From NCBI RefSeq assembly GCF_042453785.1, contig NC_091674.1, positions 27,911,501-27,975,500 on the forward strand: a stretch of 64,000 nt of DNA, written 5' to 3'. The translations under genes and the position numbers were made by a program. The stretch comes from Malus domestica (Eukaryota; Streptophyta; Magnoliopsida; Rosales; Rosaceae). The notes beneath the pieces were generated by a model, which saw only the letters and a list, made by a program, of their open reading frames with translations, was not told the DNA's origin and did not search any database. Shown in pieces: positions 8,701 through 49,100 of this stretch (its first letter is position 1; every line of letters begins with the position of its first letter).

Positions 8701-8811
8701 ATACTAAATAACATTTTGATGATTCTTTTTAACCAAGAAATGAGAAACTTGTAGTGCCAAAATGTTGTTCAAATGGGGCCTCAACGACATACCAACATCG
8801 TTGGTGTCTTA

Positions 8812-9013
8812 TTCGCACGGTTCTAAAAAACAGCTTAGGCGGGTCCAATGACGGCTTTAGGGGAACGAAAGTGCAATCACAAGCATCTATTCAATCAATT
8901 GTAGTCACTTATTTATATGTTTTTATTATTATATAATAAATTTAATTAAAATTAAAAAAAAACATCTAAGCTCTTGTTTGCTATCTGACTAGCACTAGCG
9001 GTTTTTAGAACCT
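8812..9013. mobile_element. MITE-like inverted-repeat element (copy 1)
   Basis: The ends are inverted: ACGGTTCTAAAAAACAGC on the left, and on the right the reverse complement gives AAGGTTCTAAAAACCGCTAG. The same element exists at the orthologous place in copy 2 (22038-23153), where two further insertions interrupt it. It therefore predates the duplication. Confidence 0.5.
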
Positions 9014-9210
9014 TGGCTTATTCTTACTAAAAAGATTTGTGTCTCGACCTCGTTTTCCCATACTAAAAAGATTCGTGTCTCCACCTTGCCTTCCCACTCT
9101 TTTTAAGCAGCTTTGGCGTCGTACTTAAAACTTCCCTCCTACCATTTGATAGTGTAAAGAAGCTAAAAGCTATAAGCAGAAAATAAGCAAAAGTGCTTCT
9201 TCAACCAGCC

Positions 9211-9608
9211 ATGTCAAGCAGAAGATCATCATCATCATCAAGAACTTCTAAACCCTCAGATGATGAGATTAAGGAGCTCATCTCAAAATTACAACCTCTT
9301 CTTCCTCAGCTTCATCATACGCGTAATGCTCCGGTACGCGCCTAGGGAGATAGTCATGCATGCATTTGTACCTAAGGCAAACTATTGGGAGTTTTTCTAT
9401 ATTTAGGGTTTTTATCACAAATGGAATTCTGACGGTTTCAAATTTTACGCAGGTATCGGCGTCGAGCATTTTGGAAGAAACTTGCAGTTACATAAAGAGG
9501 CTGCATAGGGAGGTGGAAGATCTGAGCCAAAGAATATCTCAACTCCTGGATTCTGCAGGCATCTCTGATGTTGATGAAGAGCTTATTAGAAGACTTTTGC
9601 AGCATTAA
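9211..9608 (+). CDS. PRE/ILI-type atypical HLH protein, copy 1
   Basis: Two exons, 9211-9333 and 9453-9608, with a 119-bp GT-AG intron, give 92 aa. The protein starts MSSRRSSSSSRTSKPSDDEI and has helix 1 (about 17-37), a short loop and helix 2 (about 43-67: SILEETCSYIKRLHREVEDL). There is no basic DNA-binding region. Length, the Ser/Arg-rich start and the ETC.YI..LHREV.DLS core match the PACLOBUTRAZOL RESISTANCE / ILI1-BINDING family. Known members heterodimerise with inhibitory bHLH/HLH proteins such as IBH1 and promote gibberellin- and brassinosteroid-driven cell elongation. The start is the first ATG, and copy 2 keeps the same start and splice sites. Confidence 0.88.
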
Positions 9609-9704
9609 TAATCGCTCTCTCTCTCTCTAGGCTAGCAATTTTAATTACATGAGTTAAGTTTTGGTTGGACTATCCAACCAGTGAGAGATTATATATATGA
9701 GGAA

Positions 9705-9706
<2 letters not shown>

Positions 9707-9756
<50 letters not shown>
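9707..9756. repeat. (TA)n microsatellite in the 3' region of PRE copy 1
   Basis: About 24 TA units roughly 100 bp past the stop codon. The copy-2 counterpart (24004-24044) is also TA-rich but of different length. A CT microsatellite (9615-9629; longer at 23920-23941 in copy 2) lies between stop and TA tract. Confidence 0.9.
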
Positions 9757-9757
<1 letters not shown>

Positions 9758-10485
9758 GTGTATATATGTTTGTAATCTTCAGTGTACCTTCTGATATCTT
9801 ATGTGTTGTTAAAATGGTATCTAGTCATTGATCTAGCTCCAAACTAAATATTAAAATAATTTTTGGTTCCACATATATCGTGATTTGCTGCAATATACTG
9901 ACCAGAAGCAATGTCTTGGATTTACAATATTTAGTATCATAAATCAATCATTCAATGATTAGGAGTGAAAACAAGAAAATGAAAGCAATCACCATTGTCA
10001 GCTAAAATGGATCTGAACCTGTTTCAATCAGGGGAGTATAAAGTTGAAATGGTAAAGTCTGGTTATTACTGTTAGATAACTCCATAATTTGGTACAAATG
10101 TTAAAATTTTTAAAATTAAAATACAGTTGGAACATTAAACTGGTAATAAGCTGTTTATAAACTAAAATTTTAGTGTTCCTTCAATTCATTGACGGCAAAG
10201 TCTTCTTGAGTTTTACATATATCTATGACATGGTTAATCGCCAACTTAGAATCCCGCTTCCACCCAAATATCTTTTTTTTTCAGAATAACAAACTTAAGT
10301 CATCACAAAGAGTGACAGCTCACACAATAGGAATAGAAACCCTTTTTTGGGAAGATAGTAATTTATTGAAACCGGCAAAGAGAAATACAAGTAGCAGTCA
10401 CACTACGACTCCCAATCCCGCAACGGAGAGGAACCTACCTTATTAAAAGCTTAAGATTATTAACCACATATATCAGAGTTAATTC
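9757..10485. other. PRE 3' flank, shared by both copies
   Basis: Noncoding DNA with continuous homology to about 24045-25530 in copy 2, apart from the MITE and solo LTR inserted there. No further gene is recognised. Confidence 0.6.
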
Positions 10486-10490
10486 CAAAA

Positions 10491-12392
10491 TGTTGTAGGC
10501 ATAATTTACTGAACAATTATGGAGGCCAGAGAAAGAGAGTTGCGGCATAGATAGAGAGAAAGAGAGAGAGATGTGTAATTGTGGGTGTGTTCTATTCCAC
10601 CTCATGGTGCCTTCATTTATAGTAGTAGGATATGAAAAAACCTTTCCCTTTAGGATTACAACATTTAATAGGTAATCTACTCCTAATAGGAATATAAGAT
10701 ACATTCCCATATCTACTAGGATTTACACAATCACATTCTCATTCCAATAGGACTGCAACACTCCCCCTTGAGTGTGTAAATACTCAAGTAAATGGCGCAT
10801 CAAGTCTTCAGTGATGAAGCAAGTATAGTTGATGAAGTCGTCGGCACAATGAGCGAATGCAAGTCTCAGATCAACAGAAGAATGCATAAAAAGTAAAACT
10901 CACAAAACCTCGCTATGGTAAAACCCATAGTCTAAGGAGAAATGTGAGAATTTGCATTAAGTCAAAACTATACGTCTTTTGGACGCAAGTAGAATAACTC
11001 ACAAGGGTATGATCAGGCCATGATGGATGCCTCGTTAAAACCTAGTAGATATGGGAAACTTTCAAGCCATATTTTTGGGCTAGATGGCTGCAGGCCATAC
11101 AAAAGAAACACCCTAAAATTGGTTAAGGCTGTGAAATTGGGCACCAAAATATTTATTTATTTATTATTATTATGGGTGCGGGCTGAAAAAAAAAGCCAAA
11201 AAATGGCTTTGGGCCAAGAAACAAGGGCATCCCAGCATTGAAAGTGCTGGCTGCTGCTTTAGACAAGGTCCTGCAGCATTAGGCCTTGGGCTGGGCTCTT
11301 GTAAGGCAGCTGCAAGCAGCCCATCAATCTGCACAAACAAGCTTGCAGGCTTGCTCCAGTCACGGGCTAAGAGGAACAGCCCAACAGCAAAGGGAAGAAG
11401 AAACCCTGGCCGAAGTGGTTGAGCCGAGTTCTCGGGACAAGCCCAGCACAGGCTGGCTCGGTCTGGCGCGAGCTGGATTGTGAGAAAGCCCAGCGAAAAA
11501 AACGCTGGCTCTATGTGTTTGAAAGGGCATAGGCCCAGCAAGTCAAACCCAGGCCTAGGGCCTGATTTGCACACGCAGTAAAACCCAAGCAGGTCGGTGA
11601 GGTTAGTTCCCCTTTTTTCTTTATTTTTTTTTCAGATTTTAGTATTAGGGTTTTCAGAACCCAAAAAAAATATGCTTCTATTTTATTTCGTTTCTTTGAC
11701 TCACAAATTCCACATAACAAAATTTGCGTAATGCATGAAACAAATATATATATTGACAAATATATGAACATATACAATATATATATTGGAAGGAAAATAT
11801 AAATATAGGGGGGTTCATGCATCATGGGAAATGTTTTCATGCTTCAAGGTCGTTTCAAATATCTTACTTTATTTTAAGCGTACCTGATTGGCAGAAAACA
11901 AATAAAAGCCTTTGAATTTGTAGAAGATCCATCTTGGAAAGCCTGAATTGCATCTCCAATGCGTTGTATCTGCAACATAGAAAAATTAAATTGAATCAAT
12001 AGCATGTATATCAATCCAATAAAATAATAAGTTAACCACAAAAAGAATGATTAAAACGTAATACTCCCCAAATTGAAGAATAAATTCTCTTAGTAGCGCA
12101 GTGTCAAGTGCGTGCTGATAACGTGTTGTAGGCATAATTTACTGAACAATTATGGAAGCCAGAAAGAGAGAGGTGCGACATAGATAGAGAGAAAAAGAGA
12201 GATGTGTAATTGTGGGTGTGTTCTATTCCACCCCCATTGTGCCTTTATTTATAGTAGTAGGATAGGTAAAAACCTTTCCCTTTATAATTACAACATTTAA
12301 TAGGTAATCTACTCCTAATAGGAATATAAGATACATTCCCATATCTATTATGATTTACACAATCACATTCCTATTCCAATAGGACTGCAACA
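10491..12392 (-). mobile_element. Complete non-autonomous LTR retrotransposon
   Basis: Two LTRs of about 270 bp (10491-10760 and 12124-12392) start TGTTGTAGGC and end ACTGCAACA. They are flanked by the 5-bp target duplication CAAAA (10486-10490 and 12393-12397). On the minus strand a purine tract (AAGGGGGAG) precedes the LTR at 10760, and a TTATCAGCACG primer-site-like motif follows the LTR at 12124, so the element reads leftward. The 1.36-kb interior keeps a copia-like 3' end but no protease, integrase or RT. Copy 2 has the uninterrupted CCAAAA site near 25530. LTR differences are few, so the insertion postdates the duplication. Confidence 0.88.
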
Positions 12393-12399
12393 CAAAAGA

Positions 12400-12556
12400 G
12401 TTTTTTATTTTTATTTTTATTTTTGAGTACATGGAGGGAGAGTTTGGCTAACCCACGTAATGGGCGGCTTAATTTGGTACCAAATTCGCCATTCATGAGA
12501 TTCGAATTTAAGACCTCTTACTTCTAAGCGAAAATGAATATCACCAGACCGTTGGA
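12400..12556 (-). mobile_element. SINE, copy 1
   Basis: On minus, a GGTCTGGTGATATTC start and a degenerate TTCGAAT box-B-like motif end in an A-rich tail (the T/ATTTTT run at about 12400-12424). It is orthologous to the SINE at 25536-25704, so it was there before the duplication. The adjacent LTR element landed at its tail. Confidence 0.6.
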
Positions 12557-12917
12557 TGTAAATATTTACATTTTGTTCATACATACATTTCAAATTTCAC
12601 AACTGAGCAAATGCAAATATATCAATAAATGAAAAACACAAATCATACAACAAAAGAACTTCATTTATAATTGAAGAAGAAAAATCAAACGGAAAACATT
12701 TAACACCTCTCATTTTTTTTTATACAATTAATTTAGGGAATTGTTATTGGTACTCTAAAAATCTTATTTTATATTTAAAAAAAATTAATAATTAGAAAGA
12801 AAATTACACTTGTAAGGAGTGTAAAATGAAATTTTTGAAATGATGATAACAGTTCTTTAATTTAAAGTTAGCCACAATTGCCTAGCTGTTGCTGCTTTAC
12901 TCCATTGTCTTCTCCAT

Positions 12918-13415
12918 CTAGCTCTTCACCGCATCCACAGCCGTCGATCCCATCTCTTCCAAATCATCCAAGCACGTCTCCTGATCTGTCACCGCGCTGC
13001 TTATCCACGTCTGTATGTCGTTGACTTTATCCCCGGTCAATGCCTTCTCTCCCGGGCCCACCCTCATCGCCGACGCCGAGTCGTTGACCCGGTTCATCGC
13101 TTCCCCCAGCTGAGAAACGCAGTCCTGGGTCGCCGCATCGGAGTTCACGGTCATCAACAGCGCCGAGAGGCGGGTGAGCTCGGCAGCGGAGATTTCGAGG
13201 GAGAGCTTGAAAATGGCTTCTGGGTCGGGATTTGGAGAGCGGTTGGGGACGGATATGGAGGTGAAGCACGAGGCGGGGTACCGAGTTACGTTGCAGACGG
13301 TTTTGATGGTAGACTCGGCCTAGTTGGAGCGAGATTGGGGTTGGAACTCGGCGGGTGACTGGGTAGTGGAATGGTGGATGACGGCGGCGATTGCGAGGGT
13401 GATCACTAGTGTTAT
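12918..13415 (-). pseudogene. Pectinesterase pro-region (PMEI-like), copy 1
   Basis: Reading from the RPS9 stop codon in the same frame: a hydrophobic anchor (ITLVITLAIAAV), a premature TAG after QPQSRSN, then TIKTVCNVTRYPASC, a helical stretch, DCVSQLGEAMNRVNDSASAM, and WISSAVTDQETCLDDLEEMG, ending VDAVKS at a TAG. The four cysteines and the TWISSAVTDQETCLD block are typical of the inhibitor-like N-terminal domain of type-I pectin methylesterases. The catalytic PE domain is missing. The premature stop (near 13320) is also in copy 2, so decay began before the duplication. The last TAG sits where copy 2 reads GAG and continues. Confidence 0.8.
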
Positions 13416-14505
13416 TCAATCTTCATCCTCTTCGTCTGCGTCTCCGCCAGCAGCCTTCTTAGCAGCCGCGTTCGTGTTCCTTCGCTTCACTCTGCCAGGG
13501 CGTCCGCCGCCTAACGGGCTTGTAAGCGAGAAATCGATGTGCTTCTCGGTGTCACATCTCACCAGGAATGAGGGAATGTTCGCCACTTGCCTCCCAACTC
13601 TGTCCACAATAAAAGAACAAGGTATAGTGAGGATGAATGTTCACCTTGCAGCTCAAGCAACCGAAACAATGGTTGGTGTTATATAATATGTAAACAGTGT
13701 GATCCATTCAAACACTAGAGCATCTTCTCTACTAGCAGGAATCGAAATAAAACATGAAGTACAACAGATATCGAATCATCAAACCGATAGACTCCTCCGT
13801 TCAACTCTATAACATAATTAGCTCCAAGTTTTTCCTTTCTCCGAAAAGTCAACAATCCGGCACGACAAATTGTTGGTATAATAACAAACCATTTATCAAG
13901 TACTTCCATTTGTTTCTAGATCAAACATGAAGTACGAGCAAATAGAACACTTTTCAGTAGAATTAATACCATCACATGAAATGTAAATCCGTAAATGTGA
14001 TGCACCAAAATATCCGCATTTTCCCGGACATTACGCATTGAGATTGACCATATAATCACATTGAATCAGTGATTTTAGATCAATAGCACTAAATCAAATA
14101 AAAGCACAATAAGAAATAAGTTTACCTGATATGCCTCAGCCTGATGAGCACACGAGCATGATGGATGGACTTTGCCATACCAGTCTTGAACACAATCGTC
14201 TGCAGGCGGCGTTCAAGGAAGTTCTCGACATTCAAAGCCAAGACATACTCGAGCTTGTTCTGCCCCTCGTCCAAAAGCTTATAACGGTTCATCCTCCTGA
14301 GGAGAGCCTCACCCTCAATAATCCGACGAGGGTTCTTCTCATCAAGGGTCAGAAGCTCCCTGGCATTGTTTCGGATACGGCTCTGGGATGCTGAAACCCT
14401 CCACAGCTCTCTTGGACCGAAGCCCGAACTCACCCACGAGCTTCAGCTCAGCATCCAACCGTTCCTTCTCGTAGGGGCGGCGGGGCTTCTTAAGCGTCTT
14501 GCCAT
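13416..14505 (-). pseudogene. 40S ribosomal protein S9 (uS4) pseudogene, copy 1
   Basis: Exon 14126-14505 codes for the [20 protein letters not shown] region through [21 protein letters not shown] intron follows, then exon 13416-13599 with [15 protein letters not shown]...HIDFSLTSP and an acidic end DADEEDED. This is the cytosolic RPS9 that binds 18S rRNA in the small subunit. A 2-bp deletion at about 14400 (between LRSKR and ELWRV) breaks the frame, and the first short exon is not found upstream. Because the intron is kept, this is not a processed retrocopy. Copy 2 shares the deletion. The frame passes straight into PME sequence after the stop. Confidence 0.85.
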
Positions 14506-14736
14506 CTAAAATTTTCACAATTCAGTAAACTTTTTCATAGTTTACCATTACAAATTCAGAACCCAACACTAACCACCTAAGATGTACCTTTAAATTCCGT
14601 TATAAAAATAAAAAAATTGTCATCGAACAATGTAAATTCAGAGACTTTGAAATGTATATCATTTAACCCTGAAAATGTAAATCCCACGTCAGGAACAACA
14701 AAAGTTTCTCAATGATTTCGATATAATAAGTATCAG

Positions 14737-14737
14737 A

Positions 14738-14780
<43 letters not shown>

Positions 14781-14836
14781 CACACACACGTGTGCGCGTG
14801 TATATATATATATATGTGTGTGTGGGGGGGGGGGGA
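14737..14836. repeat. Compound microsatellite (TA)n / (CA,TG)n / poly-G
   Basis: A TA run, CACACACACG, TGTGCGCGTG, a second TA run, TGTGTGTG and ten G's in a row. The orthologous place in copy 2 (31988-32071) has TA then a long TG run. Confidence 0.9.
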
Positions 14837-14970
14837 GATTAAACATCAGAGAAAGCGAGATGGATCGTTGGAAATAAAAACTAATTTTCTAAACTCTGTC
14901 TATAAAGAAAGAGAAGCTCAAAAACCCTAGTGAAGTTGTTGGCTAGCTAACCTAGCGTCGAGTCGAGGCA

Positions 14971-15218
14971 TGCTCTCTTAAGGTATTCATTTTGAGGACA
15001 AATGCATATTAGCCATATGATTGTATTAATTTGTATCCAAAGATTTAAAATATTTGACAATTTAATAAAGAAAAACAGGATGGTTCATGGAATTTAAGTT
15101 GATTTTACTTTATTAAGTTATCAAATATTTTAAACCTTTGAATCTGAACTAATTTAAGCATGTAGCTAATATGCATTTGGTCCTTATAAGTCCTCAGAAT
15201 GAGGACCTTAAGAGAGCA
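14971..15218. mobile_element. MITE with TGCTCTCTTAAGG ends, copy 1
   Basis: The ends TGCTCTCTTAAGGT and ACCTTAAGAGAGCA are inverted. Homology extends inward through GAGGACAAATGCATATTAGC and its inverted partner. The copy-2 counterpart is at about 38929-39182, so it was already present in the ancestral unit. Confidence 0.75.
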
Positions 15219-15867
15219 AAACTGGCGTCACCCAATAGAATTCATCAATCTCTCGTTTGGAATTGCTTTTGGAGTAAGCACTTCTGTTAGAACTACTTTT
15301 ATTAGGAGCACGTTGAATGCAGTTGTGGATTCTTGTGAATGCTTCTTCGGTGCTTTACGAAAGGCTTCTATAAATCAGAAGTACTTTTAAGTTTTTCCGC
15401 CAAACCTAGTTGAAAGAATTTTTAGTTGATATAAACCACTTTTAGCCCATCAAGAACAATCCTAAACTTGTCCACATTTCTTTTAATTTTACTCAATCGA
15501 TGATAAAATGGATAATTTCGGAGGTCAATTTCAACTTAGGTGATAATTCAAGGGGTCAATGGCAATTTACCTTTTTTATATACCTCAAGGTCCTCAACCC
15601 ATAAAGAAGGGGAATGTTTTCTCTTTCCAACCATTTTTACTTTTCATACGTTCTTCTCAATTTTCGATCGTCAAATCGAATGAATTGAAAAAAATCAATG
15701 ACTACAAATTAAAAAGGGTGTATAAAAAGTAAAAAAAAAAATGTAATTAACGCTATCCATTCATAATATGAAGGATAGGTGAAACCGACGAAAGCTATAA
15801 AGGTTGCAAACTTGCAACCACCAAGAGTTGGCTGTGGAAACCCAAGTGAATTTGTTACCAAATCTGC
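15219..15867. other. Shared noncoding backbone with a degenerate MITE (copy 1)
   Basis: Homologous to about 39290-39915. Positions about 15610-15755 contain a diverged member of the hAT-type MITE found at 23213-23360 (TTTTTACTTTTCATACG..., CGATCGTCAAATCGAATGAATTG). No gene is recognised. Confidence 0.5.
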
Positions 15868-15944
15868 ATTCAGTTAGGTACACACAAACACACTCATATA
15901 TATTGAGAATAATTCAGTTAGGTACACACAAACACACTCATATA

Positions 15945-18900
15945 TATTGAGAATAATATTTCTCTTCTCTTTTCATTAATCTGAAAGATAATTTTACACA
16001 AGTATATATAGTTACACTTCGGGGTAAAAAGTAAAAGAATATTCCCTACAGTAACTATCTAACTAAATTGGTAATTGTCATGAGTTACTATTACAATGAG
16101 TTATTATATTATGCTTATCACACCCCCTCAAGCTGAACAGAGAAGGGTGAAGAGAGAGCTTGGATCGAAGTTGGGGAAATCGTTGTCGAGGAAGTGACTT
16201 AGTATGTATGTCTGCAAGTTCATCTTGGCTGCAAACAAACTGAACTTGAAGTAATTGTGCTAAAACCAACTCACGAATGTAGTGATAATCAATTTCTACA
16301 TGCTTAGTGCGAGCATGAAAAACAGGATTGGATTTTAAGGCAATATCAGAGACATTATCACACCAAATATGAGGAATGGTAGGCAATTTGAAACCAATAT
16401 CAATAAATAATTGGTAAATCCAAGTAATTTCTGCTACAGTATGAGCTAGAGAATGATACTCAGCCACTGTGGATGATCGAGCAATTGTGTGTTGCTTCTT
16501 TGCACTCCAGCCCAGTTAGCATCAGAGAATGCCTTAAATGTTAGGGAAGATGAGGATTTGGGAAACCATAAACCAATTCCAACTATGCCTTTTAAGTATC
16601 GTAAAATCCGTTTCACTGCTTGAAAATGTTGTTCTCATGGTGAATGCATGAACTAGCATACCAAATTAACAGTAAAGGATAAATCAAGTCGAGTCCAAGT
16701 TAAGTATTGGAGAGCCCCGACAATGGATCTGTATTCTGCAGGATTAGATAGTAAGGGCCCAGAAAGATCAAGCTTGGCAGAACTAAGTGGTGTGGTGCAT
16801 GGCTTAGCTCCATCCATATTTGATCTTTTAAGCAAGTTCATAAAGTACTTGGATTGATGAATAAAGATACCTGATGAAGATCATTGAACTTTGAGCCCAA
16901 GAAAGTAATGGAGATCACCCAAGTCCTTGACTGGAAACTGAGCATTGAGCTTGGAAATAACAGCATTGCAGTGAGAAGAAAAGGGGCCAGTAATAATTAT
17001 ATCATCAACATACACTAGAACCAAAACTAGAACATGTTGATGAAGAATGAATAAATTGTGATCAGATTGTGATGCTTGAAACCCCAATGAGAGTAGAGCA
17101 GATTGAAGTTTCTCAAACCAAGCTCTAAGAGCTTGTTTAAAACCATAGAGAGATTTCTTTAAGTGACAAACATAACTGGGATGATCTTGGTCAATGAATC
17201 CAGAAGGCTAAGACATACACAAATTTTTTTTTAAGGAACCATGGAGAAAAGCATTACTAACATCCAACTGATGTAAGAACTAATTAGACTGAACTGCTAA
17301 GGTGAGTAGGATTCTAATGGTCACAAGTTTAGCCACTAGACAGAAAGTATCACTAAAGTTGATACCTTCATGTTGATTGTAACCCTTAGCCACTAAACGA
17401 ACTTTATAGCGATCCACAGAGCCATTTGGTTTGTGTTTAATTCTGAAAACCCACTTACACCTAACTAAGTTGTTTGAGGGAGAATGAGGAATAAAAGTCC
17501 AGGTTCCTGTATTCTGCAAAGCATTGAATTCATCTTGCATAACTGCCCTCTAAATGGATACTTAGATGCTTGGAGATAGGTAGAAAGAACATATTCACTG
17601 TCTAAATGTGACTGTAAAGGGTGTTTGGTAGCTATATAAGCCTTAGATTTAAAGATGCCTGACTTCGACCTAGTTTGTATAGGGTGAATAGAAGGAATAG
17701 GTGGAGTGGGAGAAGTAGATGGAGGAATAGGCTAAGAAGTGGAAGAAGGTGCATTTAATGCAAGGTATAGAGGTGTGGGTGTAGGTATGGTAGATGAAGG
17801 GAATTGCAATTCAGGTGGGATAGCATGACAGAGTGAGGATAGGGTAAGATATAGATGGGGAAAGTCAAGAGAGAAGGGAGATGAGGCAGTATGAGAAATA
17901 GTTGATGAAGTAAGGGAATAGGCAAGTGTGTGAAAAGGAAAATAAGTCTCATCAAAATGCACATGTTTGAAGATGTAGACCCAAAACTAATGGGGCACAT
18001 TAGAAGCTATCAATAATGTCTTAGCAGTTTCGACAATATGTCGGTGCTTCCTTTTAGCACAACCGTTTTGCTATGGTGTGTAAGGACAACTGAGATTTTG
18101 TTGAATGCCACAAAAAGCAAGATGTTTTGAAAATTAGAGCTAAGAAATTCACCCCCTAAGTCTATTCTTAAAGTACCGATCTTGAAACCAGATACATTTT
18201 CAACCAGAGCTTAAAATTGGACAAATGTAACAAACATATCTGATTTATTCTTAAGAGAATACAACCAAGTATATTTAGTGAAATCATAAACAAAGAGAAC
18301 ATAGAAATTGTAACCACTAACAGATAACAATGGTGTTGGACCCCAAACATCAGCATGACCAAGTTTTAGTGGTCTAGATGTAATACTAACAGAGTCATGA
18401 AATGACAATTTTGTACACTTGCCCAAGATACAATTTAAACAAAACAACTTATCAATAGAAGTAGTAATAGGCAGGGAAGACTTAGAGATAACAGATCCAA
18501 AAGTCTTGAATGTTGGATGTCCCAAGCGTTGAAATATGAGGTAAAGTCCTTATTGCAGTAGTTGCAAGATACCTTCTGGAATGATTAGGATATGCATAGA
18601 AGGGATAGAAACCTTGGTAAACAAGACCTCTAAAAAGCATCTTCCCTGTAGTAAGATCCTTGACAATGAAGTCAAAAGGATTCAGAGTCAAAGAACACTA
18701 ATTATCCAGGGAAAACATATTTGCAGAGAACAGATCATGTTTCAATTGAGGAACATGTAAAACATTCTAGAAAAGTAGCAGAATGAGTTCAAATTAAAGA
18801 AGAGCTAGAGTGGAGAATCGGCAAACCTTGGCCATCTCCAATGTAAACTTTGTCAAGTCCATGATATGGTTGTGGATTCTGCAAATTCTGAATGTTATTG

Positions 18901-20355: not shown

Positions 20356-20358
20356 ATA

Positions 20359-20362
<4 letters not shown>

Positions 20363-36896: not shown

Positions 36897-38096
36897 TCAT
36901 CCCCTCATTGATTTATTCAATTCTAACTGACTGATTATTCCCCATCTGCCTAGGAATGGCAAAGTTGGTTGATAGTAGGATGGTATTATGCCCAAAGAGC
37001 CAGGATGACTGCCTTCATCTAGCCGGCACGATCCATTCTTGTGTGAAGTTCCTTGTCCCAACCATCGTACGTGGCCTTCTATGCCACTTCTTTCTTCCAT
37101 GATGGTTTGGGAGTGGTGTCTTTCTGGGTTCAATATATGTAGCAATGCTCCTAAAGTCCCTTTGTCCACCTGATCCAGTACCGGTTAAGCTTCCATGTGA
37201 GGAAGATGGTGGGTCATCTCTCACAGCACCCGTCTTTCTCTTCTCTCTTATCCCTAGAGGCATCGGTCTTCTGATCTCTACCTCGTCTCTGATCGGCCCT
37301 ACTTTAAGCCATTCCCCATACCCTGCTGCACCTCTCCTGTTTGGTGCGAAAGAGCACTCAGTATTGGCATGGCCTATACGTCCACACCTATAGCAAAAGT
37401 CATGTAGGCGTTCATATCTAAATTCCACCCAAGTATCTTTATTAGTTTCTCCTTTCAACCAATAACCGTTGATTAGTGGATTCGCAGTATTGACATTGAC
37501 TTTAACCCTTAGAAATCCACGGGCTTTAGCTGGGTCCTCTAGCTCAATGAATTCCCCCACATTCACCATTAGGCGTTTGACATTAGCGTTTGTAGTGAGA
37601 CTTAGAGGGACCCCCTGATCTGGACCCAAAAGGGAACGACTGCCATCTTAACTTCCTCTAGCGCTAGCTCTGGGGGCCGTTTCTTGACAGAGAAATTTTG
37701 CTTCATCACTGCCCACGGAACTTTAGCTAAAATCCTTGTTGCCATGGTTTCATCTTGAACTGTAATGACAAACATATTATCCCTAACCCACTTTATGTCC
37801 ACCTCCCCAAAATCCTTCCAAGCAGAGTAAAGAATATTCCTGAATCCTCATTTGTTCAACTTTCTGTCTACCAGGGCCTCACCCACCAATTTAATGCCAT
37901 GTTCCATTGATGATAGATCCATTGAGTGCTCAAGGTGGACCACCAACTCCTCTAGTTCTTGACGAGCCATTTGTCTCCACGCCTTTCCTGTTAATTGTCC
38001 CGTATGCACAATTGGGTTTAACGGGTACACATTATTTTCTTTATCTAAGATTTCAGCAGAATCACACTTTCTTTCTAATTCATCGGAAACATTCAC
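36897..38096 (-). pseudogene. LINE ORF1 (gag-like, zinc knuckle)
   Basis: Three frames in order: 38096-37848; 37802-37602 (VRDNMFVITVQDETMATRIL, DUF4283-like RNA-binding fold); and 37629-37015 with FCYRCGRIGHANTEC, a CCHC zinc knuckle. Broken by stops between frames. Confidence 0.78.
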
Positions 38097-38928
38097 ATGT
38101 TACTGCAATAAACAGATCATACTCACCATAAAGACAGTTGTTAGGGCGTACCTTCAACTATAGAAAATTGAATTTGTTGAGCTTCCAGAAATCAAATCGA
38201 AGGTAGGTGCGCTTTCTGCGTCCTCATTTATTGCCGAAGTTGGACAGGTCCAAACATCCTCTATTCTTGTGTCGGATCTCACATATCTGAAAGGTGCGCT
38301 TTCTGCTTCCCCATTTATTGCCGGAGTTGGACCGTTCCAAACATCTCCCATTCTTTTGCCGAGTCTCACAGATCTGATACTTGTCATTCTGTCATAACCA
38401 ACCTCCAGAATAGCTAGTAGAGATAGACCCCACAACACCGGAGGTCGAAAACATTTACACCCTCATTGGGCAATAACTCAAGTAGGATTGGGACAATGGT
38501 GGATAATAAATAGAAATTGGGACTGGTAAGAGAGGAAATAAATGGGGTAATAACTCTAAATGCGGCCACGAGTATCCACTCCTTCAAAGCAATGCAGACT
38601 TGACAAGATGTGGTCATTAACCAATTCATAGTGCCACATCACAAATGTAGTTACGAGTTAGGTTGGGTAGGTAAAGGGATAGACGAAATCCTCCGGGAGA
38701 AAGCATTTACCATCCACCAGATCTAATAGAATGGGATAAAATCAGGCTTTGGAATGGAAAAATGAAGGGAAAGGAAACACACCCACATATTTACTCTAGG
38801 GAGAAGGGGCTCGCACTCAAGCAAACTCTCACGAATGAGAGAAAAAAAAGTAAATGTGCACTATGTTTGTTTGATCTCTCACCCTAGTGAAGTTGTTGGC
38901 TGGCTAACCTAGCGTCGAGTTGAGGCCT

Positions 38929-39182
38929 GCTCTCCTAAGGTATTCATTTGGAGGACAGAACCAAATGCATATTAGCCGCATGATTATATTAATTTGTATC
39001 CAAAAGTTTAAAATATTTGACAACTTAATAAAGAAAAACAAGATGGTTCATGTATTTTAAGTTGATTTTACTTTATGAAGTTGTCAAATATTTTAAACCT
39101 TTGAATTTGAACTAATATAAGCATGTAACTAATATGCATTTGATTCTTATAAATCCTCAAAATAAGGACCTTAAGAGAGCAA
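38929..39182. mobile_element. MITE with CTCTTAAGG-type ends, copy 2
   Basis: Orthologue of 14971-15218. The left end has drifted (CTCTCCTAAGG), while the right end keeps CCTTAAGAGAGCA. Confidence 0.65.
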
Positions 39183-40364
39183 GACTGGCATCGAGTGATA
39201 TCAAATTGCTTGCTTTCGTTAGATGGATTGACCCATATTTTATAAGACGACCCATTTTGGGCCTACAGACCAAACCCAACTTTTTTGTTATGCCCAACCC
39301 ATTAGAATTCATCAATCTCTCGTTTGGAACTGCTTTTGGAGTAATCACTTGTGTTAGAACTGCTTTTATTAGGAGCACGTTGAATGCAGTTGTGGATTCT
39401 TATGAATGCTTCTTTGGTGCTTTACCAAAGGCTTCTATAAGTACTTTTAAGTTTTTTCCGCCAAACCTAGTTGAAAGATTTTTTAGTTGGTATAAATCGT
39501 ATAAATCACTTTTAGCTCATCAATAACAATCCTAAATTTGTCCACATTTCTTTTAATTTTACTCAATCGATGATAAAATGGATAATTTTAATATCGGAGG
39601 TCAATTTCAACTTAGGTGATAATTCAAGGGGTCAATGGCAATTTACCTTTTTTTTATACCTCAAGGTCCTCAATCCATAAAGAAGGGGGAGGTTCTCTTT
39701 TCACCCATTTTTACTTTTCATACGTTCTTCTCAATTTTCGACCGTCAGATCGAATGAATTAAAGAAGATCAATGATCACAAATTAACAAAGGTGTATAAA
39801 AGGTATAAAAAAAAGTGTGTAATTAACGCTATCCATTCATAATATGAAAGATAGGTGAAACCGACGAAAGCTATAATTATAAAGGTTGCAAACTTGCAAC
39901 CACCAAGAGTTGGCTGCGGAAACGTGTATATAAGGCACCCACCATATCTATCATTTCTCAATAGATTTCATGGATTTTACATACATATATGAGCATTCAA
40001 TCTGTCTAAAAAAGTATGAGATGTTATGTTTTTTTTTCTTCTAGTTTGCCATGTTAGTGCACAAAATGTTCAAAAGCCTTCACACTTCTAATGAAGCATG
40101 TCTCAACGAGTGTTTTTGTAATAGTCCTTAGTCTGTTTGGAATTGCTTATGTACGAAACATTTGTGATTTGTGCTTTATTTGTATCAACATAATTTGTCC
40201 AATCCGAAGAATACCAAAAATGACCAACACTATAAGCAACAGTTTTGATCATCTAAAAGCGTTTTTAACCGTTGTATAAGCAGATTGGGAGCATGCCTCT
40301 TTATTCAATGAAATAGAAAAAGAAAAACTTAAAGTTCGGGAAACAAATTGGACGGCAGGTTTTA
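39183..40364. other. Shared noncoding backbone (copy 2)
   Basis: Homologous to 15219-15867 and 20673-21100 in copy 1, without the copia and fold-back insertions. It includes a diverged member of the 23213-type MITE near 39690-39825. A short stretch (about 39195-39295) is absent from copy 1. No gene recognised. Confidence 0.5.
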
Positions 40365-41046
40365 CTTTTTTTTTTTTTGGTCAAGGGAAAGATTTTATTC
40401 CAACCAAAACACAAACTTATAAATAGACAAGGGTCCAACTACACCTATACACAACCAAAAAGGGCCTAAACAGAAAGAAAACAACAAAAACAGAAAATGA
40501 GCCCAAAACCTAAGAACATCTTAGAAGCATCACTGCCTTCTCCACCGACGATCCAAGGAATTGTCAACCATCCGATTCCCCGACAATCGCCAATCATCTT
40601 CTTCACTGACGTCTCATGCGCACAACCATAAGTTATGGGTAACTGGCATCCAAGCGAGAGAGGCCAATCACCAGTTGGAAGCTCAGAACAAGTCCCGAGC
40701 AACACTGCCGCAAGCAGCAAACACAATGGAGAACATGGTGGTGTGGAACAAACTCGAGCCGGTCCAAGCGCCGGAACTCTACACAAGATCTCGACAAAAG
40801 ACATGGTTGAAAAACAAAGTAAGGAAGAATCAGGAAGAAGAGAACCCACAAAGTTGGAGGAATTGAAAAGGCCGAATTGAAAATTGGGGAGAACCAACAG
40901 TAGATGTAGGCAGTGGCGGAGCCAGGAATCTTACCACAAGGGGTCATAATGTAAAAGTTCAAAAAAAAATTTAGGATGGAAAAACATTTTGAAAATGAAA
41001 TCATAGTAGTTTCATTCATAATTCATAACGGAAACAATATTACAAG

Positions 41047-43422
41047 CTATAATTGTCCACGACGAGGTTTCATATTTTGAAAACGAAGCATTATAGCTTC
41101 ATTTTCAATACAAGCAAAAATATCTCTCTCAATATAAACAAGCAAGCTATCACTCAACCATTGATCTCCCATTTTGTTCCTAAGTGGACCCTTAACAATA
41201 TTCATGACAGAAGCTCTCTCCACTGAAGCAGTTGCAACTGGTCAAACTAAAGACAATGTAATGAGCAAATATACATAGTTGAATACTTGATGCATCCTTG
41301 TCTCCACCATTTTTTTTGCAAGATCACCAATCCCTTCCAATTGAGAGAAATCACTACTGGAACGCACATAATGAATAAAAATCTCAAGTTGATCTTCAAG
41401 TGCCAAATGATCCTCATCCGAAAAGTCTTGAGGATAAAATTGAGCAAGACGAAGTAACTTTGGTTTATCAAAAGCTACAAATGAATCTTTCGGACTCAAA
41501 CATGCCAAACAAATAAGCAACTCTGTATTTACCTCATTAAAGCAATCCTCTAACTCCGTAATTTGCTCATCAATGACATAAATAAAGAGCTCCACACAAT
41601 AATGATGACGATTTGTCTTTATTGGAGCATTACGCCTTGACCTCCCTGGAAGTATAAATGCCTCTTCCATGTTAGGAATATCAATATAATGTTTTTCACA
41701 AAAAGAAGATACTTCATCAACCAATGCATCAAACCCATTATTCCTCATCCAATGTAGCCTTTCCTTGCATGATTTCACTAAAGTTATTGCATTCACAATT
41801 TCTTGATCTTTCCTTTGCAATGCTTGTGACAAATCATTTGTGAGTCCCAATATGACTTTCATCAAGAAAAGGTGAAACACAAACTCAAAAGTACGTATAT
41901 CTCTCATTAACTTATTTGCTTCACCCGCACTTTCATTGGGATTATCATCAATAACCATTTGAAGCACATGAACCACAGATGAAAACATGGAAATGATGCT
42001 AATCAAGGTACCATAGTGTGAGTTCCATCGTGTGTCACCGGCACGTTTGAGACTTGTTTCTTGATTTAAGCCTCGCCCCGTTATAAGACAATCATTTTCA
42101 AAAGCTATCACAAGCTCTTCTTGAAGTTGCTTTCTAAGTAAATCACGCTGCTTACAAGATGCTCCAACATGATTAACCACACTATTAGCCGTTGCAAAAA
42201 AAGAGGCAATGTCTATATTCTTCTTTGCTACGGCAACAAGAGCTAGTTGAAGTTGATGAGCAAAGCAATGAACATAATATGCACAAGGTTGTTCTCTCAA
42301 TATCTTTGTTTTAAGGTCATTCAACTCACCTCTCATATTGCTAGCACCATCATAACCTTGTCCTCGTAGCTTGGAAATGCTCAAACCGCAGCGAGAAAAT
42401 AATGTGTCAATAGCATCCATTAGTGAACTTGAAGTAGTGTTGGTAACATGTTGGATACCCACAAATCTTTCAATTACATGCCCGTTGTCATCCACATAAC
42501 GCAACACCATAGCCATTTGCTCTTTCACCGACACATCACGTGCTTCATCCACCAATATTGAAAAGAATCTATCTTTTAGACCATCCATGATAGCATCAAG
42601 TGTTTCAAGGGCACATGAATTCACAATTTCTTTTTGAATGCTAGGAACTACTAATCTCAGATTCCCCGGAGCATTTTCCATCACAACTTCTCTAACTTTA
42701 TCATTATTATCTGCAAGGAATTGCAATAGCTCCAAGTAATTTCCCCTATTACTTGAAGTGGCACTTTCATCATGGCCACGAAAAGGAAGACCTTGCCGCA
42801 ATAAAAACTTAGTGCACTTGATTGATGCATTCAAGCATGTGCAATAAGCCTTACGAGCTTGGTCAGAGTGTTTGCTCACTGCCGTTTCAATATGTGTAGC
42901 TTGATTCATCAAATTTGTAGCAGCTTCTCTAGCCTTATTATGAACACTCCCAACCGGTCCAACATGCATCTTAAATCTTTCTCTCCCTTTCTTCCAAGTC
43001 TTAAATCCATCTCCAGTGAAAGCTTCACTACCCACTTGTGCAAAATTGGTTTTAAAGAGATAGCAATAGAGACAAAATGCCGCATCTTTAGATATACTAT
43101 ACTCCAACCAATCAAACTCATCAAACCATTGGGGAATGAAGCGTCGATTAATTCCCGACATATTAGTTATTGGGAAATTATGACCTCTAGGTTGACAAGG
43201 TCCTTTTTGTAGATATGATCTTCGGACCTCATCTCTCATATTAGCATCATAATCTATTATTCGAGTTCTCAATCCAGGATCCGCTTCAAGATTACCCAAA
43301 ACATCATCTAACTGACTTTGCCTTGAATTTGGAGTTCTTGAACTACCAACAGTATTTGAACTATCAACATTATTCGAACTACCCGAACCCGATGATGACT
43401 TTCTTTTAAAAAACCGTTCCAT
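41047..43422 (-). pseudogene. hAT transposase (ZMYM/TTF-type, DUF4371), one internal stop
   Basis: The start at 43422 gives MERFFKRKSSSGSGSSNNVD. A further in-frame ATG upstream only adds translated repeat DNA. A zinc-finger-like N-terminus (FDWLEYSISKDAAFCLYCYL) is followed by a DUF4371 RNase H-like core (RFFSILVDEARDVSVKEQMA, LRGQGYDGASNMRGELNDLK, YYVHCFAHQLQLALV). The frame is open for 726 codons, then a TGA at 41242-41244 interrupts it. The hAT dimerisation end continues in frame after it (PVATASVERASVMNIVKGPL...IMLRFQNMKPRRGQL, stop at 41047). The usual F-S-A after VERA is missing. So the core is complete, but the dimerisation domain is cut off by a single stop. Confidence 0.9.
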
Positions 43423-43427
43423 AATAA

Positions 43428-43996
43428 TTCTACATATACAAAATAATGAAAATAAATACTCACAATATAAACAAACCATCAACATAATCAAAATAAATAT
43501 GAATTGGATTTCAATTAAATTAAATATCTCATCTTGCATTCTACATATACAAAATAATGAAAATAAAAACTCACAATATAAACAAACCATCAATATAATC
43601 AAAATAAATATGAATTGAATTTCAATTAAATTAAATATATTCTACATATACAAAATATTCAAAATAAATACTCACAATATAAACAAACCATCAACATAAT
43701 CAAAATAAATATGAATTGGATTTCAATTAAATTAAATATCTCATCTTGCATCCTACATATACAAAATAATGAAAATAAAAACTCACAATATAAACAAACC
43801 ATCAATATAATCAAAATAAATATGAATTGAATTTCAATTAAATTAAATATATTCTACATATACAAAATATTCAAAATAAATACTCACAATATAAACAAAC
43901 CATCAACATAATCAAAATAAGTATGAATTGGATTTCAATTAAATTAAATATCTCATCTTGCATTCTACATATACAAAATAATGAAAATAAAAACTT
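43428..43996. repeat. Alternating A/B tandem repeat in the hAT leader
   Basis: Units of about 110 and 100 bp alternate (A with GGATTTCAATTAAATTAAATATCTCATCTTGC, B without the CTCATCTTGC tail and with GAATTTC), giving a higher-order period of about 211 bp over five-plus units. It lies in the transposase 5' leader, and its translation explains the spurious N-terminal extension of the frame. Confidence 0.85.
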
Positions 43997-44836
43997 ACTT
44001 GAATTGTGAAATTTCACAATAACAATGAGCAAATACAAAGAGCAAAGCTGGTGGAGCAAGGGAGGAGATGGAGTTGGAGGCACCTTAATGGCGACAGCAA
44101 GGGAGGAGATGGAGTTGAGGGTTTAGGGGGGATTGAGTTTGGAACTTAGGGTTGGAGGAGGAGAAAACAAAAGAAATTTGGGGGTTTTGGAATGAAAGGC
44201 TTCGAATCTGTGTGAAATAGGGCTGAAAAGGACACGGTCGGTATTTTTTTTCTGTTCAGACCTGCCCAGGACACGCTGGGCATTTTTTTTTGTTCAGATC
44301 ATTTTAAAAAAATTCCTGGGCCAAAACGACGTCGTTTTGCCCAGGTTTTAAAAAAAAAAAAACAGGCGCGCGCCTGCGCCTTCGTCTTCCTCTTGCCCAG
44401 CCGAGAATTCTTTCGGACCTTTCGTCGAACACTTGGTGTGCAGCCAAGGGGTCGCACCAGCAGCTCCAAGGGTCTCTAAGGTTGTTTCCATGGCTTCCAA
44501 GGGGTCGTGCGACCCCATTGACCCCACTGTGGATCCGCCACTGGATGTAGGGAGAAAGGAAGGAGAAAAGGAAGAAGATGACACAACACTCGACCCCAAT
44601 CGAAGCTAGAATCGATGCCACCGAAGAGCCTGGAAGAAGATCTCACAGAAATACTCACAACAGAGAGAAAGAAACTCTCACATAGCATTGCTTGCTCACA
44701 GGAGAGATGCCTTTTGAATCAACAATTCCACCCAATTGCCAATTCCAATTTTCAATTAAATAACAAGTAAAATAAAAAGCTCAATCGCCGTCTTGCTCTC
44801 TCACTTTTGCAGGCCATCGTCAATTTTGGACAAATG

Positions 44837-45344
44837 GAGACCCAAAACAGACCCAAAACTTTAAATTATACACACAGCCTGATTGATTATTAACTTACAA
44901 AAGTAATAGAATAATGTTGGGAAGATCAAAATTTTAAATCAAATTTGTAAATTAAATGATGTGTCACCAAAATAAACACGCTAATCAACATTCAATTAAT
45001 AATTCAATCATCAACCACCAAATTTGATTTAAAATTTTAATCTCCCTAACACAAATGTCAAAATGTTGATTTTTAATTCTTGCAACATTTTTCATTTGTT
45101 TCACATACCTACCATACTATTTTGGGACTAAATTTTACAAAAGACATTAACGTGCCAATTACAAGGCGATTTGGTTAGAACACTACTTGGCTGCTGCAAA
45201 TTCAGCACCAACTTCTGCTTCTACCTAACAAATGAACACGTATCCAAATAATTAAAAGTGTAAACACCAATTAAACACGTGTATATCTGTAAGTTGAATA
45301 AAAACAGAAGCTGCTGATAAATTTCCGCAGCCAAGTAGTGGTGT
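44837..45344. mobile_element. Composite MITE insertion specific to copy 2
   Basis: Copy 1 is uninterrupted here (CGTCAATTGCTGTCTACAAC near 21250). Two inverted-repeat elements are visible: about 44914-45055 (GTTGGGAAGATCAAAATTTTAAATC and its inverted partner) and about 45180-45344 (ACTACTTGGCTGCTGCAAATT and inverted AATTTCCGCAGCCAAGTAGT). Confidence 0.6.
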
Positions 45345-45482
45345 ACAACTAATGATGCTCATGAAAAAAGTCACAATCAATCCCACGAGGCATCAAACAA
45401 TAAACAGTTCTCATCAACTACTAAAATATAAAAAAATCTAGAAAAAAAAAGATAAAATAAAAAGGAATAAGCTAATAAAAAA

Positions 45483-45697
45483 GGGAGGCAGATTGTCTGC
45501 TGTCATGTTTGAGTGTCCCTCTTATCTTTTTTTATTTGTGTGATCACTATTAAGTTATGTCAATATTTTATATTCTTATTGTTTTATATCTTATTATTTC
45601 TATAAAAAAAATTAATATAAAATATTAACATGATTTAATGGTGTTGCACAAAATATAAGGGAATGGGAATGACATCAGGGCAGACAATCTGCCTCCA
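45483..45697. mobile_element. MITE with GGAGGCAGATTGTCTGC ends
   Basis: The terminal inverted repeat GGAGGCAGATTGTCTGC is perfect, and inward similarity continues. Flanks AATAAAAAA and AATTAAAAAA may be a target duplication of 9-10 bp, suggesting MULE type. It is absent from copy 1, and lies about 400 bp upstream of the EB1 start. Confidence 0.75.
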
Positions 45698-45719
45698 ATT
45701 AAAAAAGGGATTAAGCTAA

Positions 45720-46100
45720 ACTAATATAAAAACAAAATAAAACCCTCTCTCCTCCTCGCACGCTTGTATTTGCCAAAGTATCAAAAAAGTTCCCTCATTT
45801 CAGTGCCCGCCAGTCGTGCAAATTTCCAACTCCGTTTATTTTTCTCTCTTATTTCTCACCATTCAATTTCCATCTTCCATCAGGTTCTCATAATTTCCAC
45901 ATTCCTTATTTTTTTCGATTTTTGTTTGAATTTTAATTTTTTTTTTCTCGAAAAGCCGTTTACACTCTAATCCTCATCGGTTTAAATACTTAAACAAGGT
46001 CTGTTTCTTCTCCGACTCTATTTTGGCATTTTCTTATCTCCTTTCTGTGTCTCTGAGTCTGAAAATTGTGGAAGAATTGGGAAAATCCGGGGGAAGAAAA
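45720..46100 (+). promoter_or_regulatory. EB1 proximal promoter and 5'UTR
   Basis: The sequence between the MITE and the EB1 ATG is conserved almost base for base at 21600-21983. It has AATATAAAAACAAAATAAAA followed by a pyrimidine-rich leader (CCTCTCTCCTCC). Exact transcription start is unknown. Confidence 0.55.
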
Positions 46101-49100
46101 ATGGCTTCCAACATTGGGATTATGGACAGTGCTTACTTTGTTGGGAGGAATGAGATTTTGACGTGGATCAACAATCGCCTTCAGCTGAACCTCTCTCGCA
46201 TTGAAGAGGTTCTCTCTTTCTCTCATTTTTTGGTTATTTTTTTGGGATTTTTGAGAATTTCTGTGTTGAAAAGAAACGATCTTGATCTTGGGTTTGTCTG
46301 TCTGAGCATTACCCATTTGTTCAATTTGTGAAATGCTTTCTGGGTTCCTTTTTTTTTTTTTTTTTTTTGTGAAATTTTTTTTTAATCCACTAAAATTGGG
46401 TGCATTAATTCGTAAATGGAAGTTAATGTATGACCCAACTGAACTAATTGTGTTTATGATTGGAAAGTTGAATGCTTTATCTGCTTTGAAATATGAAAGT
46501 TTGTTAATTATGCTACTTAGGAGTTGGCAACCTGTGTAATTTTGTTGACCCATTTGATTAGAGGTGACACTGCAGTGTGGGTTTCTGTTGTGTTTCACTA
46601 ATTAAGTGATAGGAAGTAGTATACTGCTTCTGGATGAGCTGTGTATGGGGTGAGCCCATGTCTCACGTCGAAACCTTTAACATCATTAACCCTTGTCTTG
46701 AACTCAACTCAGAGTTTCGCCTTTTGAATAATTTATAGCAGTTCTGTACTCTTCGTAACATGGATGGATGGAACTAAAGCAGCTTTTGCGGTGAAAATTA
46801 AATTGTGATAGGCATTCATTGGTTTGTTCCCTAGGATATACGTCACATTGTGCGATTTTGATCCTTTAAGTTTCCTTCATTTGAAACGAACACTAAACTT
46901 CTTGTATTTATAACCGTGCAAACAAATGTGGCTAGGCTGCATCTGGTGCTGTGCAATGTCAAATGATGGATATGACCTATCCTGGTGTTGTTCCAATGCA
47001 CAAGGTATCTGCGTGCCTCTGCATCTTTTATTTATTTGATCAGCACATTGTGGTGGGATTAACATTTTTATTGCCGGACTGGCACCCCTCTTCGATTTCC
47101 TTCTATTTGGTTTATTGCAGGTCAATTTTGATGCGAAAACAGAATATGATATGATCCAGAATTATAAGGTTCTACAGGAAGTATTCAACAAGTTAAAAAT
47201 TGCGAAGGTATTTTCATTACGATGCTCCTCCACTCCTCGTCTTTTTTTTCATAATTGGCTTTTGAGGAATAACCTTATTTTGAAAGTTATTTACAAAAAC
47301 CTCCAATACATGCACTCACTTTTAGAATAAAGAATTATCCAAGTCAAAATTCTGTTTGTAGGGCTTGTATTGATCTTCACCACATATGGGAATACTTTAT
47401 CTTGTATAGATGAAAACTTATGACATAGGTGCTGGAATGAATTGTGGGAATTCTTTATGTCTTGGAACTGTTCATAAGGTTTCGTAGGTCCATACCATGC
47501 TATGGTGTTGTTTGGTCTAAATTGTCTCCCACTCATTTGTGGTACGTTTACAAGTTGGTTGGTCTTAACATTATTTGGGCTATTAGGAAAAAGCGAATAT
47601 CACTCTGCATGACCAGTTTGCTAGGACAACGCTAGCATATACATGTGTTGAGATTCTTTGGTATTAATGATCGAAGAGTAAGGTTGAGATGTACCTCTAC
47701 TGTAATTCTTTATTCCAGTATGGTTCCATGACTTGGGATTGTTTGTGATATTGCAAACTTTAATATAGGTGAGTCGGGAAACCAGACAGAGGTAATCTTT
47801 GGAACAAGAACAACCAAGATGTTTGTATTCTTACCGATCTCAATACTTGTGCAGCATCTTGAAGTCAATAGGCTGGTTAAAGGCAGGCCTTTGGACAACT
47901 TGGAATTCTTGCAATGGCTGAAACGCTACTGTGATTCTGTAAATGGTGGCATTATGAATGAGTATGCTCGTTTTTCTAACATTCTCCTCTCCTTTCAAAG
48001 CTTTGGGTTCGTTGTTGGTATTACATCAATGCCCTTTTTCTTACATTTTTTTTCTCCTTGTAGAAACTATAACCCTGTGGAGCGAAGGAGTAAGGGTGGG
48101 AAGGATCGGCATCCCAAAGGTGCTCAGAAAATCTCAAAATCTCTGCAATCAAGCAATTTACATAACCCTGGCTCTGGAGATACAGTTGGTCTTAATAAGA
48201 CCTCAGGTCAGATCCCCTCCCCCCCACCGAAAATTTTATTTCTACTCCTTTTGATTAATTTTTAAGACTTAAGAGTGCTTCTCATTGCTTGATGCTTATT
48301 TCTTTAGGACCAAAGCAAGGGAGACCTTATGCAGCTGCAGGCGGTGCTAATTCTTCAGAAGTTCAGGCTTTGTCTAAGGAGGTATCAGTATCTTGCCTTG
48401 TCCGAGGAAAATCATTCCTCTCCTAGTATCTGGCTTTGCCTGTGGAATTATTCATCTTGCTTCGTTATTTTGTCTGATTCTTAGTAGTTTTCATTCTATA
48501 CTTCTGTTTGACAGATTACAGATCTCAAGCTCTCTGTGGACCTTTTGGAAAAAGAAAGGGACTTTTACTTTGCAAAATTAAGGGATATTGAAATTCTTTG
48601 TCAGACATCGGAGTTGGAGGATATCCCGGTATGAATTTCTGCCATGTTTTTCATATATGACTTATGGTTTTGTAATCAATGTATACAATTACGTACTTGC
48701 ATGGTATTCGTACGATGTATATTTCTTTCCCGTTATCATGCCTCCTTTTCAAATCTCATGGTGCATCTAAAGCTGACGACAGAAGTTTGTATTTGCTGGA
48801 CGTTACAACATTTCATAATTTCTGAAGCAAATTACAGGAATTGTTAATGGATCTTGAAACTATGAGTACGCTAGACTTGGGTTTTCTTTTCTTAGGGAGC
48901 TAGGTTATGCCTTTTTCCTTTTCTCTTAGGCTGGCATTTCTTGCTAGTATTGACTAGAACAAATTCCGTCCGTTCGTCCGTCCTCCTCCTCCTGTGCTTC
49001 TGCCTCTGCCCCTTCCTCTTGAAATTGAGTGATTTAGTAGGTTTACGCTTCCGTGTATGAATGTTGGATGTTGTTAACTGATGTGGTTAACCAACTTATC

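Follow-up and report, generated by a model that had tools for sequence, protein, structure and literature searches.

The 64,000-bp stretch of the apple (Malus domestica) genome considered here (the window), which a genome search places at C14:27911501-27975500, carries a direct head-to-tail duplication on chromosome 14. Its two units, 8759-21984 and 21979-46103, contain in the same order a PRE4 gene, a remnant of a pectinesterase with a PMEI domain, a pseudogene of the ribosomal protein RPS9 (uS4), and the promoter of the microtubule gene EB1 up to its start codon, while the body of EB1 follows unit 2 only. The sequence supports the preliminary description of this DNA as a tandem segmental duplication with its breakpoint on the EB1 start codon; the structure set out there stands, whereas the gene content and the position of the second PRE4 copy behind an EB1 promoter had been overlooked.

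The comparison of the window with itself, proposed in the preliminary description, brings out both units once AT-microsatellite, inverted, and dispersed-element hits are set aside. The 18 collinear blocks all lie on the same strand, and the earlier observation is borne out to the base. With two short blocks omitted, the other 16 contain 342 differences in 5891 aligned sites, gap columns not counted, which gives p = 0.058 and a Kimura two-parameter (K2P) distance of 0.061. Unit 1 is 13.2 kb long and unit 2 24.1 kb, the gap coming mainly from insertions. The right end is set by the whole-window self-match, which ends at 21984/46103. At the left, the self-match starts at 8759/21979 in a run where the unit-2 text itself began at 21979, and the flank test described below gives no extension further left.

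As previously claimed, a run of 6 bp, AAAATG, is common to both ends and the join, the three sites being GTGCC-AAAATG-TTGTTC (8759), GAAGA-AAAATG-TTGCTC (21979), and GAAGA-AAAATG-GCTTCC (46098). The run includes the EB1 start codon, and the next base outside differs. A shared run of at least 6 bp occurs at ~0.2% of random position pairs in the window. A short identical run, the sign of microhomology, is thus present in both ancestral ends and in the junction. The long homology at both ends that marks non-allelic homologous recombination was not found, as the 300-bp flanks outside the ends showed no similarity above simple shuffles in four of four comparisons, which argues against recombination between end repeats. 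Because there is no longer homology at the ends, we infer that the join was made by a microhomology-guided event, either a replication template switch or microhomology end joining. The 29-codon open reading frame (ORF) at the junction was considered as a new chimeric gene and rejected, since at the same place in unit 1 an ATG of its own likewise opens an ORF of 29 codons; the chromosome 6 sequence has no alignment there, nothing supports a protein, and the frame is taken as incidental. A dispersed repeat, 8601-8732, ends ~26 bp left of the left breakpoint and accounts for 38 of the 42 matches listed for 8600-9000 (the best 40 of 2556 candidates scored).

Judging by sequence, PRE4 is the sole intact gene that was duplicated, because RPS9 and PMEI were already broken. 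Both copies carry the ILI-type HLH domain (PF23174, 1e-21 and 8.1e-23) of the PRE/ILI atypical bHLH proteins, and they can be equated with published members of the apple PRE family. The computed mass and isoelectric point (pI) are 10450.62 and 6.41 for copy 1 and 10866.09 and 6.41 for copy 2, while the available part of PMC8987198 prints 10450.75 and 6.41 for MdPRE4.2 (Chr14) and 10866.22 and 6.41, with a span of 406 bp, for MdPRE4.3 (Chr00); the masses agree to 0.13 Da, and the pI values are identical. In the same manner, PRE4 of chromosome 6 (10353.59, pI 6.06) corresponds to MdPRE4.1 (10353.71, 6.06 in that source). Thus, the three PRE4 genes equal MdPRE4.1, MdPRE4.2, and MdPRE4.3 in mass and pI, and copy 2 equals MdPRE4.3 also in span and in the published forward primer, which has one match in the window, at 23509 in unit 2 only; the reverse primer fits both copies. 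The difference lies in the placement of MdPRE4.3, which is on Chr00 in the paper and on chromosome 14 here. A search of the genome with the PRE4 protein gave 14 matches, of which six are exon rows, two at each of the three PRE4 loci (64-94 bits), and the remaining eight are other PRE-like genes (45 bits or less). Synonymous divergence (dS) of PRE4 is 0.041 between the units and ~0.26 to chromosome 6. When compared with chromosome 6, copy 2 alone has gained two replacements (K to R and G to D) and an insertion of three residues, copy 1 has gained none, and two further replacements are unassigned, all of these being small numbers. Literature searches by gene ID and gene name found no mention of a tandem origin of MdPRE4.3 in print; they met the identifiers of MdPRE4.2 and MdPRE4.3 in PMC8987198 alone and the name MdPRE4.3 in six other papers, and the main text of PMC8987198, as far as available, has zero occurrences of "tandem" or "duplicat".

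RPS9 and PMEI were also considered as duplicated working genes and rejected, being damaged in both units. The frame-joined read-out of RPS9 copy 1 matches uS4 in the PDB. The PMEI remnants share an in-frame stop that is absent on chromosome 6, and the RPS9 frame is broken at the same place in both units, in a part that has no alignment on chromosome 6; these common lesions indicate that the units descend from one already damaged segment. An insertion of ~210-250 bp upstream of PRE4 is likewise present in both units and absent on chromosome 6. Thus, the PRE4-upstream insertion, the PMEI stop, and the RPS9 frame break would all have preceded the duplication. The 5′ part of RPS9 also has no alignment on chromosome 6, where RPS9 (C6:31514244-31514485) looks truncated, which suggests decay of this RPS9 copy on both homoeologues. 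The stretch 14940-15226, which additionally has an inverted match to itself in the other unit, is present in both units and unmatched in the chromosome 6 counterpart; perhaps it too was inserted before the duplication.

The single-copy state, for which the preliminary description had looked to related species, was located within the same genome, on the homoeologous chromosome 6. In the 70 kb fetched from there, ~31502378 to 31531627 is collinear with the window, the counterpart of the units being 8.2 kb, and what is duplicated on chromosome 14 occurs once, in the same orientation and in the order PRE4.1, PMEI, the RPS9 remnant, the EB1 promoter, EB1, and then DNA matching an IRO3-type bHLH gene. 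In the window, a neighbouring minus-strand gene, 53862-54353, has an IRO3-type bHLH domain (PF23177), and it is the matching DNA that stands beside EB1 on chromosome 6. It follows from the single-copy order that chromosome 14 acquired the duplication once the homoeologues had separated. Across five regions, 83 of 2035 sites (4.1%) differ between the units, and each unit is ~12% different from chromosome 6, with 36 changes on the branch of unit 1, 41 on that of unit 2, and 6 unassigned. The divergence of the units would therefore be about one third of that of the homoeologues in these regions, and less by PRE4 dS. Older datings of the recent whole-genome duplication would put the duplication described here at 10-17 Ma (million years ago). 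One paper, in its available part, places the peak of the recent whole-genome duplication at Ks 0.2, with an age of 14.69 Ma, and on that dating the duplication would be ~5 Ma old or less.

The claim of one intact EB1 gene and one EB1 promoter with its ATG only was confirmed by Pfam, the self-comparison, and a genome search. The intact gene has both a CH domain and the EB1 C-terminal motif. The search with the EB1 promoter and exon 1 gave four matches, three of which cover the promoter, namely the two in the window and a third on chromosome 6. The orphan promoter shows no faster decay, as 7 changes fall on its branch and 11 on that of the real EB1 promoter, with 1 unassigned, of 390 sites. The left breakpoint keeps 446 bp upstream of the PRE4 start, or ~200 bp minus the older insertion common to both units. 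This 446 bp of unit-1-like sequence is retained before PRE4 copy 2, where it is now spread by ~1.1 kb of further insertions, and upstream of it the EB1 promoter (21582-21984) replaces the distal upstream region of unit 1. This is the promoter-capture layout known from cucumber CsACS1G, with a foreign promoter in place of the distal upstream region. By quantitative reverse-transcription PCR (qRT-PCR), another group found the highest level of MdPRE4.2 in fruit and detected MdPRE4.3 in flower alone (available part of PMC8987198); this pattern fits a regulatory divergence of the two genes and is no proof that the EB1 promoter is used.

The units have also accumulated private insertions (listed with the other features in the table). 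A script searching for target repeats in 15 candidates returned five convincing ones, among them 27087-31036, whose edges were set by eye; for two others, 10491-12392 and 22080-22436, the script preferred other matches and the repeats were read by eye, and for the other 8 of the 15 the script search found no convincing target repeat. The seven insertions with target repeats comprise three resembling miniature inverted-repeat transposable elements (MITEs), one resembling a solo long terminal repeat (LTR), two LTR elements, and one long interspersed nuclear element (LINE), these class names resting in part on termini, target repeats, and Pfam hits. We take 22080-22436 to be PIF/Harbinger-like, 23213-23360 hAT-like, and 24107-24337 MULE-like. 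Nine of the 11 private insertions tested have no match in the 8.2-kb chromosome 6 counterpart. The divergences between the LTRs of the two elements, 0.070 and 0.054, would fit insertion soon after a duplication at 0.061. The DUF4371 frame of unit 2 is uninterrupted over 799 aa, and tandem repeats at 43423-43998 overlap the side where it begins. In the left flank of the duplication, 2311-2823 is a tandem array of ~64-bp units.

Table. Features of the duplicated segment and its surroundings in the window (SE, standard error; strand given as a point where none applies)
Feature	Position	Strand	Remarks
Unit 1 of the tandem duplication	8759..21984	+	18 blocks collinear with unit 2
Unit 2 of the tandem duplication	21979..46103	+	Collinear blocks with unit 1
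AAAATG, left end of unit 1 (left breakpoint)	8759..8764	+	446 bp before the PRE4 ATG
AAAATG at the internal junction, where the EB1 start codon meets the PRE4 upstream region	21979..21984	+	ATG opens a 29-codon ORF
AAAATG, right breakpoint, including the real EB1 start codon	46098..46103	+	
PRE4 copy 1 (= MdPRE4.2)	9211..9608	+	Exons 9211-9333, 9453-9608; 92 aa; Pfam bHLH_ILI 1e-21
PRE4 copy 2 (= MdPRE4.3)	23509..23914	+	Exons 23509-23640, 23759-23914; 95 aa; span 406 bp; Pfam bHLH_ILI 8.1e-23
PMEI-domain (pectinesterase N part) pseudogene copy 1	12862..13412	-	Pfam PMEI 1.5e-25, from a hand-read translation with small slips
PMEI-domain pseudogene copy 2	26198..26704	-	39-bp and 5-bp gaps relative to copy 1 and chromosome 6
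RPS9 (uS4) pseudogene copy 1	13416..14509	-	Edges approximate; first exon not identified
RPS9 (uS4) pseudogene copy 2	26708..31757	-	Edges approximate; split by LTR element
Orphan EB1 promoter, leader, and ATG	21582..21984	+	94.3% identity with 45703-46103; homology with the EB1 promoter of chromosome 6
Promoter and leader of the intact EB1 gene	45703..46100	+	
Intact EB1 gene	46101..49271	+	Script check of GT/AG edges for seven exons; eighth exon read by eye; Pfam CH 4.2e-10, EB1 8.9e-17
LTR element private to unit 1	10491..12392	.	5-bp target repeat CAAAA by eye; LTR K2P 0.070 (SE ~0.015)
Complex extra stretch of unit 1	15842..20680	.	Frame resembling retrotransposon gag, under the Pfam cut-off; no convincing target repeat
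MITE-like insertion private to unit 2	22080..22436	.	TTA target repeat and inverted termini by eye
MITE-like insertion private to unit 2	23213..23360	.	8-bp target repeat AAAAAGAT
Insertion with long inverted termini, private to unit 2	24107..24337	.	10-bp target repeat
Solo-LTR-like insertion private to unit 2	24458..24973	.	Target repeat TACAA; relative at 4141-4665 (89.9%)
LTR element within the RPS9 intron, private to unit 2	27087..31036	.	Target repeat GACTT, edges by eye; LTR K2P 0.054 (SE ~0.010)
LINE private to unit 2	32193..38880	-	15-bp target repeat with one mismatch; RVT_1, RVT_3, zf-CCHC_4
Insertion private to unit 2 with DUF4371 frame 41245-43641	40369..44683	-	No convincing target repeat

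Taken together, we put at roughly 0.86 the probability that one head-to-tail duplication took place on chromosome 14 of an apple ancestor after chromosomes 6 and 14 had separated. The ancestral segment would have measured ~6-8 kb and comprised the proximal upstream region of PRE4, PRE4 itself, the PMEI remnant, the RPS9 pseudogene, and the EB1 promoter up to the ATG. A microhomology-guided event, by template switch or end joining, would have joined the EB1 start codon to the PRE4 upstream region; the private insertions would then have entered each unit, and PRE4 copy 2, now behind the EB1 promoter, may have been altered in its expression.

Several observations weigh against this history or parts of it. 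The original shared run may have been shorter or longer than 6 bp. Homology to chromosome 6 begins only at ~8771, what lies left of 8759 is without a counterpart at the corresponding place of chromosome 6, and the left-flank part 6972-8507 matches C6:31490171-31491898 out of order, 16-18 kb left of PRE4.1; for these reasons, the ancestral left flank lacks independent confirmation. Moreover, 15230-15841 and 20681-21112, common to both units, are unmatched in the chromosome 6 counterpart, which is therefore an imperfect picture of the ancestor. Two of the 11 private insertions do match the chromosome 6 stretch, elsewhere. For 23213-23360, the match lies between PMEI and RPS9; for 44826-45343, it is partial, inverted, and situated upstream of EB1, and either direction of change is possible. 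As to the captured promoter, a change of expression is suggested solely by the qRT-PCR of the other group, and ~1.1 kb of further sequence lies between the EB1 ATG and that of PRE4 copy 2. After the EB1 ATG, 25 ATG triplets precede the start of PRE4 copy 2, versus 3 in the unit-1 equivalent, which makes translation from a long transcript that starts at EB1 improbable today. Flower-only expression, as reported for MdPRE4.3, is not to be expected of a broadly active EB1 promoter.

The same final sequence would result if a larger tandem duplication that included the EB1 body had been followed by a deletion that fused the start codon of the first EB1 to the upstream region of the second PRE4 through the 6 bp they shared, and deletions with short shared runs are common. 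Such a course is nevertheless improbable, as it needs two events and no trace of a longer duplicated tract is found in the 300 bp on either side. A transposon-driven origin, by alternative or reversed-ends transposition or by recombination between transposons at the ends, could be suspected from the transposon-rich unit and from the closeness of the dispersed repeat 8601-8732 to the left end, and a mechanism of this kind is described for maize in the available part of PMC3744419. Yet no transposon end was recognised and no shared repeat occurs at 8759, 21979, or 46103, and the flanks have no similarity, so we hold it to be highly unlikely.

It is equally hard to credit an assembly artefact in which two haplotypes of one locus were set in tandem, as the preliminary description had feared. 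In its favour, apple is heterozygous. In addition, GDDH13 has MdPRE4.3 on the unplaced Chr00, apart from MdPRE4.2 on Chr14 (PMC8987198, in the part available); however, GDDH13 is a homozygous doubled haploid (available part of PMC12917252), and the presence in it of both PRE4 genes, with masses equal to those of the two copies here, makes such an artefact unlikely. Against it stand also the 6% divergence of the units, their seven private insertions with target repeats (three of these read or edge-set by eye), the single EB1 body, and a join that is an exact microhomology. The next PRE-like gene on chromosome 14 lies ~59.8 kb from PRE4 here and ~59.5 kb by the positions printed for GDDH13 in the same part of PMC8987198, so that the two assemblies agree on this distance.

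Events of this kind are well known, while the present case appears to be new. The closest likeness is the cucumber Femaleness (F) locus CsACS1G, as the available part of PMC7072070 describes it: there too a tandem duplication left the second copy with a short proximal promoter (kept to -410, compared with 446 bp before the PRE4 ATG), and this copy gained distal sequence of the gene at the other end, which is itself complete after the second copy. However, the cucumber duplication is 30.2 kb long, very recent, and tied to a phenotype, whereas no phenotype is known for the apple units, which are ~6% diverged; in addition, CsACS1G captured the end of BCAT (exons 9-10) on the reverse strand, in contrast to a sense-strand promoter up to the ATG here. 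Segmental duplications induced by microhomology or microsatellites in yeast (PMC2518615, in part) likewise have short shared runs at the junction, intact original genes, and chimeric or frame-shifted ORFs at the join, but they were shown experimentally, while in apple there is a footprint only. In Drosophila yakuba, tandem duplication breakpoints also shuffle 5′ regulatory parts and can change expression (PMC5460883, in part), although those are young polymorphisms with RNA-seq data and the apple case is old.

MdPRE4.3, which has been studied for hormone and salt responses, thus gains a clear origin as a tandem copy of MdPRE4.2 on chromosome 14, an origin that was hidden because one reference left the gene unplaced. 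The locus provides a plant example of promoter capture that is base-precise and can be dated, and as the homoeologue has kept the single-copy state, the effect of the swapped distal promoter is directly testable. Tentatively, and with considerable doubt, MdPRE4.3 may be regarded as regulatory neofunctionalised, the captured EB1 promoter or the new combination having shifted its expression and faster protein evolution having followed; if true, a growth-regulator gene would have been placed behind the promoter of a microtubule gene.

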